DNA of 64,000 nt from Imbricaverruca yamaguchii (lineage: Eukaryota > Arthropoda > Thecostraca > Neoverrucidae). The first letter of the stretch is position 1. Each line of letters begins with the position of its first letter. The notes below the pieces were generated by a model. That model saw only the letters and a list, made by a program, of their open reading frames with translations. It had not been told where the DNA came from and searched no databases. Both the position numbers and the translations under genes were made by a program. The stretch is from contig JAOTOL010001558.1 in assembly GCA_034440575.1 (NCBI GenBank), forward strand, positions 1,766,001-1,830,000, written 5' to 3'. Shown in pieces: positions 1-63,770 of this stretch.

Positions 1-94
1 GAGGCCAGTGGACACCAGTACGTGACGAGGCTGGCGCGTGTGGCCACAGAGCTCGGCCGACTCCACTCGGCGCTCAACGTGCTCGCCAGACAGA
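1..94 (+). CDS. PPP1R21: PPP1R21 homologue, internal exon (5' side cut by window edge)
   Basis: PPP1R21 (KLRAQ-domain protein, a FERRY complex subunit) is an early-endosome coiled-coil protein that links mRNA cargo to Rab5. The exon reads in frame 1 and includes VTRLARVATELGRLHSALN, a helical stretch resembling the middle of the vertebrate protein (the region with LEEGMLHLFESI). It ends in phase 1 at a GTAGGT donor (95-100). The assignment rests mainly on the convincing downstream exons; this exon alone would be weak. The donor and the last nine exon bases are the start of a four-copy tandem repeat. Codon third positions are G/C rich, as in the later exons. Confidence 0.6.
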
Positions 95-291
95 GTAGGT
101 GGTGCGACCCGAACACAGTGATTCCCAGACACACTAGACATAGTAGGTGGTGGGACCCGAACACAATGATACCCAGACACACCAGACAGAGTAGGTGGTG
201 GGACCCGAACACATCAGGCAATGATGCCCAGACACACCAGACAGAGTAGGTGGTGGGACCTGAACACATCAAACAATGATACCCAAATATA
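86..291 (+). repeat. Donor-spanning minisatellite, 4 copies of 48-55 bp
   Basis: Units begin at 86, 134, 182 and 237. Each opens with the last nine bases of the upstream exon (CCAGACAGA or a one-base variant) followed by GTAGGTGGTG, so each copy carries a splice-donor-like site. The first copy is the real exon end. Confidence 0.85.
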
Positions 292-339
292 CCAGAGGGA
301 TACTCAACATGGATTGAAATCTCGAAGGTCTTGTTTAAC

Positions 340-1815
340 TAACCTATTGGGGTTCATGGAGTATGTTACTAAGAAGTAGACAATCAAAGCAGGATAGATG
401 GTGTGTACTTGTACTTTGGCAAAGCTTTTGATAAATAGCCACATGGAAGGCTAATTCATCAACTATGGCAGCATGGAATTGTTGGAAAAGTTCTGGCTTT
501 GATTGAACCATGGTTGAGGGGAAGGAACAAAGGATAGTATTAAATGGATGTAGATCTGATTGGAAGGATGTTTTGAGTGATGTACCGCATGCCTCTGTAT
601 TAGGGCCACTTCTCTTTATCATCTTTGTGAGTAACAGAGTTAGCACTGAGGGATAGATTGTTCAAATTTGTTGATTCCAACAAGCTGGTAGGAGTGGCTA
701 ACAGTAGTGGTCAATCTAGTAATATTCGACTAGACCTAAAAACTCTAGACTAGACCTAAAACTCTTTGCAGGATTTAAAAAGTGGTCTGATCAATGACAG
801 ATGTCTCAAAAAAATGATAAGTGTGAGGTAATGCATCTGGGATATGTACGTGAGACTTTCAGATGTGCAACAGGAAGGAGGGAACTGGATGTTATTGAAG
901 AGGAAAGAGACTTAAGTGTGTTGGTTTCAAAAGACCTTAAAGCAGAAAAACAGTGCATCTCAGCTAGGAACAGGGGACTCAGAATGCTATGACTCATTCA
1001 TAGGAGTGTGAGATATAAGAGCAAGGAAGTCATAACCATACTTAGCACATGTGCGATCCCACTTAGAATATCATGCACAAGCATTGACCTCATACCTGGA
1101 AAAGATATAGATATGTTAGAAAGAGTTGCAGCACAATGCCACCAGACTCATCAGTGAAATAGGTAACTTAGAGTATGTAGAAAGGCTTATGACATTAGAT
1201 GTGTACTCACTCAAGTATAGGAGATTAAGGGGGACATGATTGAAATGTACAAGATTGTTAAAGGGGCAGACCAGGTCAAGTTGAATGATGCTCCTCGGTT
1301 TAGAGTATCACATAGGGGGTCATCAATCCAGGTTAGACAGGTTGAGCTGTAGGACAGTAAAGTGGCAACAGGTCTCCAGTCAAAGGATTGCTGATCAGTG
1401 GAATAGGCTGCCTGCTGATGCTGTGGTGAGTTCCTCATTGAATGCATTAATAGGTATGGTAAATAATTTTTAGGCAGGAAAATCTTGTTTTTGAGTTTCA
1501 ATTATTTATGGATGGGGTGAGATTTATGCTAAGTAAGTGTGCACGGCACAGACCCCTTTAAGCAGGCATGGATGCAGTTTGATAATTATTGGTAAGGCAT
1601 TCAATCCACATGTGTCGATATGGATCAAAGGAATAGGGCTGGCTAGCTAGGGTAGATAGGCATTGATAGGCGGGTGGGATGTTGGCGGATGGTTTCTTTA
1701 AGCTGTGGTGATGGTTGTGGTGGCTCTTTTTTACCAGGCTTAATGTGTCTTCCATTTACAGACTGAACTGGATGGGCCCTTGTGGCTCTTATTCAGTCTA
1801 AACACTTAATGCCTT
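340..1815 (+). mobile_element. CR1-like LINE relic (3' part of RT and 3' UTR)
   Basis: Conceptual translation in shifting frames gives reverse transcriptase pieces in the expected order: SVLGPLLFIIFVSN (590-640), KCEVMHLG with EERDLSVLVSKDLKAEKQC (820-950), then the thumb and C-terminal module with RRLRGDMIEMYKIVKGADQV (1220-1280) and SIEWNRLPADAVV-type text (1395-1430). Stops and frameshifts are frequent, so it is dead. Beyond about 1480 comes a 3' UTR that ends near 1815 with a GGGCCCTTGTGGCTCTTATT block, seen again near 20370. It lies in a PPP1R21 intron. Confidence 0.75.
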
Positions 1816-1863
1816 TGTGACTATATATTGCGTCGCCAATCTGGCATCCATTGGTCGCAGGCA

Positions 1864-1930
1864 GACTCCTCACTTCCTTCCGACGCCGCTGCGAGACTTG
1901 GCTCACGATCATTGGCTCTGGAGTCCGGTG
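1864..1930 (+). CDS. PPP1R21: Possible PPP1R21 exon (weak)
   Basis: After an AG at 1862-1863 one frame reads SSLPSDAAARLGSRSLALES, similar in pattern to SSLCTSALRARNLELSQDM in the vertebrate protein. The exon would start in phase 1, matching the donor at 94, and would end near a poor GTGTCC donor. The same frame hits a stop near 1968. No strong donor is visible, so boundaries are a guess. The stretch 1931-2013 has a similar TEQP-coding motif and may be a diverged duplicate of the next exon start. Confidence 0.35.
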
Positions 1931-2013
1931 TCCCATCGACCGAGCAGCCGCGACCCCGCGACACGTTCTGATGTGCTGCACTATGTCCGCTGACTGTGAG
2001 TGCCCGCCCGCAG

Positions 2014-61537: not shown

Positions 61538-61960
61538 GTCGGTTGTCTGACCCCGGCACTGGTACAAACATCACGTGACTGCGCTGCACTCCAGCCTCGA
61601 GACAGAGGTCACCCGTCTGAACCAAGATGGATGCATACATCCCTCCTGACCGCGCTGTACTCCAGCCTCCATACAGAGGTCACCCGTCTGAACCAAGATG
61701 GATCCGCACATCCCTCCTGACCGCTCTGCACTCCAGCTTGCAGACCGAGGCCACTCGTCTGTGCCAGCAGGGGATGCAGACATCCTATTGATGATACCTG
61801 ACTCATCCTTCCGGACCGAGATCATTCGTCTGATTCATTGCCCCGGGGATGGGATATAAGTATCCCTCAGAACGAGTCTAGATTCTAACTTCCAGATTAA
61901 GGTCAGTTGGCCCCATCGGATGATACGAATACCCTCCCTAGTGTCCTGCACTCATTCTGG
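61498..61960 (+). repeat. Donor-spanning minisatellite, 5-7 decaying copies of about 71 bp
   Basis: The exon 9 end (CTGACCGCACTGCACTCCAG and on to the donor at 61538) recurs with donor-equivalent positions at 61608, 61679, 61750, 61820 and 61902. Sites at 61608, 61679 and 61902 keep GT; those at 61750 and 61820 have lost it. Copies become less alike with distance. Confidence 0.88.
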
Positions 61961-62305
61961 AAGTGTGGCCACCATGTCCATTTTCTACCACGTGCTTTGT
62001 CGCCCTGCGGGATCGGTAGGAAATCAAAAGTGCAGTTTCAGTTGATGCTCAGTCATGTCCATTGTAAAATGCAATTCTGGAGTTTTCTTTTTCTATACAC
62101 TTTCTTTTTCGGCGTTCCTGTCATTCGCAAAATTACATATTTGCATTTTGCGCATTGCATCACACATTTGCACGGCATTCTCCTGATTTTCTCTACAACG
62201 TCCTAAGGCTTTTCGAAAAGAGTATTTAAACTGGTTTACCATATACAGCTGTGTGGAGATATCTCAGAAGGTGGCTAGCATTTGCTTCTTGATGGTGAAA
62301 ATTGG
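61961..62305. other. PKC intron 9 sequence, nothing recognised
   Basis: AT-rich; no exon. Confidence 0.5.
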
Positions 62306-62309
62306 CATG

Positions 62310-62540
62310 CGGTGGCTCCACCACAGGCTCCACCACAGGCTCCACCACAGGCTCCACCACAGGCTCCACCACAGGCTCCACCACAGGCTCCACCACAGGC
62401 TCCACCACAGGCTCCACCACAGGCTCCACCACAGGCTCCACCACAGGCTCCATCACAGGCTCCACCACAGGCTCCACCACAGGCTCCACCACAGGCTCCA
62501 CCACAGGCTCCAACGCAGGCTCCATCACAGGCTCCAAATT
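62310..62540 (+). repeat. 12-bp minisatellite CCACCACAGGCT, about 19 copies
   Basis: Very regular. It keeps frames open on both strands (Ala-Pro-Pro-Gln or Val-Val-Glu-Pro repeats). No start, splice or family context supports a protein. Confidence 0.97.
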
Positions 62541-63485
62541 TGGCAAACAGGGGACTGTCTGGTCGTTTGCTTACCTATGGAGCAAACAAACGGTAACTTT
62601 ACAAGCAAAAGAGCCGATCACTGGAGGAGCACACGTGTTATTTTGGTAATGAAGGAAGGCTGAAATCAAAAAGTGCATGAAACAAAATTCCTCCAGAATT
62701 CGATTTTATCTTCAAAGACATGTGAGCCGAGGGTTAAAACCCCAAATTTGTACTCCGCGAAACATCCCACCGAGCCCCATGGCGTAAGCAATCTGCACAT
62801 GATATGCCGACCGTATCAAGTGGTTCGGACCGTAATCGAAGTATCCGTCATGTCTGCCTGAAGTGAAATGTCATATTGTACCTCGTACTTAACGTACGGT
62901 GAGATCAGCTCCATGGGCTTGCTTGAATATTTTGGTTCAATTATTCGAAAGGGTCGCCGCAGCTGTATTTTCCACGGCGTGCCGTGTCCGTAGCGTCCCG
63001 TCAACCCTGTCGCCACTCTGAAAATTACTCTGAAAACTACTACCGAATGGCGCTCCGCCGGCCATAAGTTTTATGCCTATAACTTCTCGATTTAGGGTGA
63101 CTTTGTACCGTTGCATGCCGGCGCACAATATTGATTGGTGTTCGAATTCCATATTCAACATTTTTCCTGGTTTCATGATGTTATTTATCGGATGAAATTT
63201 TAGCAGGAATAATGTAAAGGAGAAATCAAACTATGTCTACCGTAGTTTTTCCCGACCATCGAGAAATGTAGTGACAATTTATTTTTGGGAGCTAACTGTC
63301 GGTCGAGCTTCGAGACGACAGGCTACAGCTTCGGGTAATGTGATTTTGAAGCAGAATCACCCAGGCCTCAGACGGGAGAAGGGAGGGCGCGATGCACTTA
63401 GAATGAGAAATGGCAATCCAGGGCGGGGGTTTTCCGACCCTGTCTGACCGACCCAGCTGACCCCGCCGCCCTGCCATGCACACAG
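62541..63485. other. PKC intron 9, last part
   Basis: Nothing recognised. Confidence 0.5.
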
Positions 63486-63640
63486 GACCGGCTGTTCTTC
63501 GTGATGGAGTACGTGAACGGCGGCGATCTCATGTTCCAAATCCAGCGGTCGCGCAAGTTCGACGAGCCGCGCGCGCGCTTCTACGCCGCCGAGGTGACGC
63601 TGGCGCTGCGCTTTCTGCACCGCCACGGCGTCATCTACCG
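63486..63640 (+). CDS. Pkc98E: Novel PKC, exon 10: kinase hinge and alphaD-alphaE
   Basis: The acceptor is GCACACAG (63478-63485) and the donor is GTGAGG (63641). It starts in phase 0 and ends in phase 2. It reads [20 protein letters not shown] and [20 protein letters not shown] then [12 protein letters not shown]. It contains the hinge MEYVNGGDL and ends just before the catalytic YRD loop, which must be in the next exon outside the window. It matches the vertebrate epsilon almost residue for residue. Confidence 0.97.
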
Positions 63641-63770
63641 GTGAGGATGAGGACGGTCATCGTCGGTATGTGGTGGGCAGGGGAGGGGGCTCTTTTTCCC
63701 CCCCCCCGGTGTATCTACCGGTGAGGATGATACGGTGGGAATGTGGGTGGAGGTGGGGGGTGATGGCGGT
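63630..63770 (+). repeat. Donor-spanning duplication, 2 copies about 82 bp apart
   Basis: ATCTACCGGTGAGGATGA, the last codons of exon 10 plus its donor, occurs at 63633-63650 and again at 63715-63732. The flanking sequence is partly similar. The second copy has an intact GTGAGG. Confidence 0.85.

Follow-up and report, generated by a model that had tools for sequence, protein, structure and literature searches.

We found that six of the 31 splice junctions (19%) placed in a window of 64,000 nucleotides from the barnacle Imbricaverruca yamaguchii (contig JAOTOL010001558.1, positions 1,766,001 to 1,830,000 of the forward strand; the window here means this whole stretch) have been drawn into local duplications. 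The window carries two genes on its + strand, PPP1R21 and an epsilon-like (novel-type) protein kinase C (PKC), and the affected junctions are the donors at 94, 3602, 61537 and 63640 and the acceptors at 4062 and 7108. In all six, the duplicated unit holds coding bases together with the splice site, and the extra copies reach only into the intron. The arrays are probably minisatellites of the type called "mirages" in amphioxus, that is, the product of ordinary tandem duplication acting locally in a genome rich in repeats, with selection letting only duplications that grow outward from the exon survive. The feature is real and of a kind already known, in a new host group; the evidence that junctions are hit in excess is modest and post hoc, and there is none for a new mechanism.

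Junction-spanning repeats and their splice-site copies

PPP1R21 is affected at four of its 12 junctions and PKC at two of 19, a set that leaves out any 5' untranslated PKC exon. In our search, a local duplication had to match at 7 or more bases on both sides of a junction, at offsets of 18-300. It gave scores of 39 (94), 25 (3602), 44 (4062), 63 (7108), 34 (61537) and 18 (63640), and of 11 or less at the other 25 junctions. A sequence-only reading of the same DNA had pointed to repeat units combining a splice site with exon bases at 94, 3602, 61537, 4062 and 7108; all five are present, and Tandem Repeats Finder (TRF) reports each as an array whose exon part is given in Table 1. The donor at 63640, which that reading had put forward as a probable sixth case, indeed belongs with them, although it is not a TRF array: a single extra copy aligns over 17 exon bases, 15 of them identical. 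Its observation that copies extend only into the intron also stands, as at thresholds of 14, 18 and 24 none of the 31 junctions had copies confined to the exon side. Its estimate that about one third of the visible junctions are affected was too high, because most PKC exons had not been seen and the denominator was too small.

The exon part of the unit is conserved coding sequence at five of the six places, all but 4062. Conservation relative to Pollicipes covers LLARQ at 94 and YLRLLE at 3602; CRHLVRSL at 7108 is conserved relative to the human protein, and LHSSFQTK at 61537 and HGVIYR at 63640 relative to barnacle PKCs. At these five junctions, therefore, the exon is the source of the copies in the intron. 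In the 7108 array, leaving one short copy aside, the seven copies nearest the exon agree with the exon copy at 24 of its 27 exon bases, and the distal copies at 18-22. Internal copies that resemble one another, with the exon-boundary copy set apart, are seen at this array; the remaining arrays have too few copies.

The intron at 3603-4062 (460 bases) has an unrelated junction array at either end, the arrays together occupying 273 of its 460 bases.

Most extra copies still carry a splice-site dinucleotide, GT or AG being retained in 21 of 23. The reading frame is kept by only three of the 23 (boundaries 142, 190 and 61678), so nothing suggests that the extra sites are kept for coding. Read-through past the donor at 63640 meets a stop at once, all eleven upstream copies of the acceptor at 7108 (CCCCAG before the boundary, TG after it) lead to an early stop or a frameshift, and orthologous barnacle proteins are without an insertion at 61537 and 63640. 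That the extra sites function as alternative donors yielding in-frame isoforms is hardly credible: two extra donors at 94 would lengthen the protein in frame, by 16 or 32 residues, but in 20 of the 23 extra copies the dinucleotide is gone or its use would bring in a frameshift or a stop. The array at 7108, in which eleven near-identical acceptors, nearly all of them protein-breaking, precede the authentic one, amounts to a natural test of AG choice by the spliceosome.

Frequency of affected junctions

At a score threshold of 18, 13.8% of non-coding positions fall in local duplications, whereas for exon-interior positions the figure is 0.5% (1.2% at threshold 14). Raw coverage makes no case for an excess, since 19% of junctions is unremarkable beside 13.8% of non-coding positions. 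It is also an unsuitable background, because long arrays inflate it and only the terminal unit of an array can straddle the boundary at a junction. We therefore used a one-sided null that counts the terminal unit only, with copies on the permitted side; because the intronic stretches of the junction arrays stay among its controls, this null is conservative. Every P value given here is nominal and post hoc and overstates the case, because the pattern was picked in the same window.

At threshold 18, the six affected junctions compare with 0.65 expected under uniform sampling (P 4.5e-5), 1.37 with local density matched (P 0.002) and 1.24 with GC content matched (P 0.0012). Junctions are richer in GC (0.59-0.69 at the six affected, mean 0.62 at the others) than non-coding sequence (mean 0.51), so that GC matching takes away part of the excess; with GC and locality matched together, 1.73-2.12 are expected (P 0.006-0.015). 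Raising the threshold to 24 removes 63640 and leaves five junctions against 1.29-1.71 expected with the same joint matching (P 0.008-0.023). At threshold 14, under the uniform and singly matched nulls, six are seen against 0.90-1.69 (P 0.0002-0.006). An excess at junctions of about threefold or larger is thus likely, though unproven. What remains after matching could be a junction-linked mutational bias or a longer persistence of arrays anchored in coding sequence; were the excess to hold across the whole genome, a mutational process coupled to splicing or transcription would be indicated.

We also considered a general proximity of arrays to exons. Four arrays lie near exons without overlapping them, where 1.6 are expected under uniform placement, 3.2 with GC matched and 2.8 with the local null, which is unconvincing.

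Origin of the arrays

The claim that no system of this kind had been described does not hold, as amphioxus mirages are minisatellite-like tandem duplications of exon-intron boundaries (PMC3087553, PMC3902484). The excerpts of PMC3087553 describe them in the globins BflGb6 and BflGb9, with splicing and length polymorphism reported, and cite an Adh3 mirage with units of 10-72 bp (Canestro et al. 2002); those of PMC3902484 describe one in PGBD5 and mention troponin C. The barnacle arrays share with mirages a unit that spans the boundary, the involvement of both 5' and 3' boundaries (here four donors and two acceptors), an authentic copy at the exon end with the extra copies in the intron, the retention of AG or GT in many but not all copies, and an overlapping unit length (about 41-71 bases, against the range cited for Adh3). 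They differ in the genes affected and in their host, an arthropod rather than a cephalochordate, and they are known from the DNA of one haplotype alone. Intronic minisatellites that affect splicing, such as the ABCA7 variable number tandem repeat (PMC5954066) and those of C. elegans (PMC4039745), likewise lie inside introns near spliced exons, but the opening parts of those abstracts do not describe an exon edge and splice site within the unit. We found no report of such arrays in a barnacle or other arthropod in the open-licence literature, where mirage-type arrays were described only for amphioxus. To judge from their sequence, the barnacle arrays look like a new example of a known oddity, the arthropod host being the new part, and arrays of this type may be something that genomes rich in minisatellites produce quite generally.

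The preferred explanation begins with local duplications, some of which would happen to span an exon-intron junction; units with conserved coding bases and a splice site are what we observe. Extra copies lying on the intron side of the authentic splice site would be spliced out with the remainder of the intron and so tolerated, the exon-proximal site being, to judge from homology and frame, the one used. Duplications reaching deeper into the exon would be purged by purifying selection, as their near absence inside exons suggests. Later unequal exchange or slippage could lengthen an array and homogenize its intronic copies while selection holds the exon copy, in keeping with the pattern at 7108. 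The one-sidedness needs no special process, because the coverage of non-coding and exon-interior positions fits selection against coding insertions, and the variation in exon overlap from 9 to 35 bases indicates that the unit is not anchored at a fixed distance from the splice site. Of the two explanations offered in the sequence-only reading, the tolerance of duplications spreading outward from exons is thus the better supported. The other, a mechanism tied to splice sites, keeps the modest post hoc enrichment in its favour and lacks specific support: there is no fixed register, and the donor-like motif GGTRAG is not enriched in other arrays.

Several observations weigh against local duplication and selection as the whole account. 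At 4062 the exon part (TGGPRGS) aligns without gaps to the human protein but is dissimilar to it, which leaves the direction of copying open to doubt there. A plain birth model expects 0.65 to 2.1 junctions where six are seen (P 4.5e-5 to 0.015). Random placement of the 29 merged TRF arrays gives 0.33-0.73 arrays overlapping an exon by at least 7 bases where five are seen, and none of 400 shuffles reaches five under each of three nulls. These figures leave room for some additional junction-linked factor.

One such factor would be that splice junctions are mutational hot spots, where duplications are set off by transcription-linked events (R-loops, nicking, a paused spliceosome or polymerase) or by the sequence of the junction. 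The excess that survives joint matching for GC and locality speaks for this, and it looks specific to junction spanning, since near-exon arrays without overlap are not enriched after GC matching. Hot spots are nevertheless unlikely, given that the units share no common register, that donors and acceptors are both hit despite their differing sequences, that 25 of the 31 junctions are unaffected, and that the P values are nominal and post hoc. GGTRAG is, moreover, less frequent in the 24 remaining arrays (2 in 6374 bases, 0.31 per kb) than in other non-coding DNA (52 in 53549 bases, 0.97 per kb), and we rejected nucleation by this motif; the comparison covers the + strand only and the counts are small. 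It seems rather improbable that barnacle junctions are true duplication hot spots independent of those in cephalochordates, with a process coupled to transcription or splicing that would build arrays of decoy splice sites and drive intron growth in at least two distant lineages. Biased persistence, which we also doubt, would have the coding copy, unable to decay, re-seed and mark its array, so that junction arrays last or stay visible longer than free ones. Indeed, the intronic copies at 7108 share differences from the exon copy, which lies outside their homogenization, and boundary units are likewise excluded in the amphioxus globin mirage, according to the excerpts of PMC3087553. However, although this is not a formal test of age, the percent matches that TRF gives for the five junction arrays (79-93) lie inside the spread seen among the other arrays.

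Intron gain or intron sliding through tandem duplication of a coding segment bearing AG/GT also copies splice signals. It is a known process (Rogers model; Gao and Lynch 2009; Zhuo et al. 2007; all as cited in PMC3087553) and, in the excerpts of that paper, a proposed outcome of amphioxus mirages. It is very unlikely here: four array-bearing introns lie wholly within the window (that after 63640 runs off its end), and in each the 80 bases around the 5' end resemble those around the 3' end no better than shuffled sequence does, with scores of 14, 11, 17 and 18 against shuffle maxima of 22, 27, 20 and 24. The ends being unrelated, duplication did not make those introns, and we rejected intron gain for all four. 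Even less can be said for an assembly artefact, in which mis-joined reads or merged haplotypes made the extra copies. Barnacle assemblies are repeat-rich and tandem repeats are prone to misassembly (PMC9582164, whose excerpts concern collapse rather than expansion), but most of the extra copies are 7-23% divergent from the junction copy, as duplicated reads would not be.

In the PKC intron 55316-60029, positions 55326-55343 near its 5' end match positions 60019-60036 in its own 3' splice region, 4.7 kb away, at 16 of 18 bases (P 0.004 against shuffles, in one of the 15 introns that were compared). The match is possibly a relic of intron gain by duplication, or else due to chance.

Genes and other features of the window

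We placed exons by tblastn and splice signals, and fixed their ends by homology, matching phase and an unbroken reading frame across both genes, giving seven exons of PPP1R21 and ten of PKC (Table 1). The joined exons read without a stop as far as the PPP1R21 stop codon. When joined, the PPP1R21 exons match human PPP1R21 (7nd2_A) at E 1.4e-26; exon edges in that query were slightly unlike those of the final model, which were set with the Pollicipes protein. A PPP1R21-like protein of Pollicipes pollicipes was the only match at E <= 0.001 in the protein collection, at 62% across 44% of the query length. The PKC part has a match to PKC eta at E 5.2e-59, and its best matches are one JGI protein and two Amphibalanus amphitrite proteins, with identities of 87.9%, 87.7% and 87.0% over 521, 519 and 409 aligned residues, respectively.

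Table 1. Exons and junction-spanning repeats in the window. Exon bases are those inside the TRF array.
Feature	Position	Strand	Basis
PPP1R21 exon A (3' part), donor after 94	1..94	+	Pollicipes pollicipes PPP1R21-like P0001, 71%; phase joins exon B
Junction-spanning array, unit about 48, 9 exon bases; 3 further copies, GT in all	86..296	+	
PPP1R21 exon B, without junction array	2014..2106	+	Pollicipes alignment, frame
PPP1R21 exon C, without junction array	2634..2761	+	Pollicipes alignment, frame
PPP1R21 exon D, donor after 3602	3456..3602	+	Pollicipes alignment, frame
Junction-spanning array, unit 41-42, 26 exon bases; 2 further copies, GT in one	3577..3698	+	
Junction-spanning array, unit 57, 22 bases of exon E; 3 upstream copies with AG	3886..4084	+	
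PPP1R21 exon E, acceptor AG 4061-4062	4063..4233	+	Gapless against human PPP1R21 7nd2_A; frame
PPP1R21 exon F (start could be 4845)	4836..5072	+	Human PPP1R21 alignment, frame
Junction-spanning array, unit 43, 12.5 copies, 27 bases of exon G; 11 upstream copies of the acceptor	6605..7135	+	
PPP1R21 last exon G with stop	7109..7360	+	CRHLVRSL aligns to human CRALSKRL; frame
PKC exon P1 (C2 domain, start codon)	19447..19776	+	tblastn with P0002/P0004, frame
PKC exon P2	37114..37171	+	tblastn, frame
PKC exon P3 (pseudosubstrate, C1A)	37713..37887	+	tblastn, frame
PKC exon P4 (C1A)	51668..51782	+	tblastn, frame
PKC exon P5 (C1B)	52800..52935	+	tblastn, frame
PKC exon P6 (C1B end)	54136..54269	+	tblastn, frame
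PKC exon P7 (hinge)	55126..55315	+	tblastn, frame
PKC exon P8 (kinase, glycine loop)	60030..60181	+	tblastn, frame
PKC exon P9, donor after 61537	61412..61537	+	tblastn, frame
Junction-spanning array, unit about 71, 35 exon bases; 3 further copies, GT in two	61503..61761	+	
PKC exon P10, donor after 63640	63486..63640	+	tblastn, frame
Single further copy of the donor junction at 63640, lying 80 bases downstream, GT retained	63704..63736	+	

The alternative start of exon F reflects an in-phase AG 9 bases beyond the acceptor at 4835. Residues 390-418 of the Pollicipes protein P0001 look like read-through of the donor equivalent to 3602, followed by unrelated residues at the end; judging by this alignment, the public Pollicipes PPP1R21 gene model is probably cut short at that donor.

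A 71-base tandem repeat of 2.7 copies (7374-7563) begins 14 bases past the PPP1R21 stop codon, presumably in the 3' untranslated region, and a GC-rich minisatellite of 2.2 kb with 33-base units (56417-58679) lies within a PKC intron. In PPP1R21 intron 1, translations of about 290-1560 resemble by eye what we take to be remnants of a non-LTR (long terminal repeat) retrotransposon reverse transcriptase, and the reverse strand at about 5140-5300 resembles, again by eye, a tRNA-derived short interspersed element.

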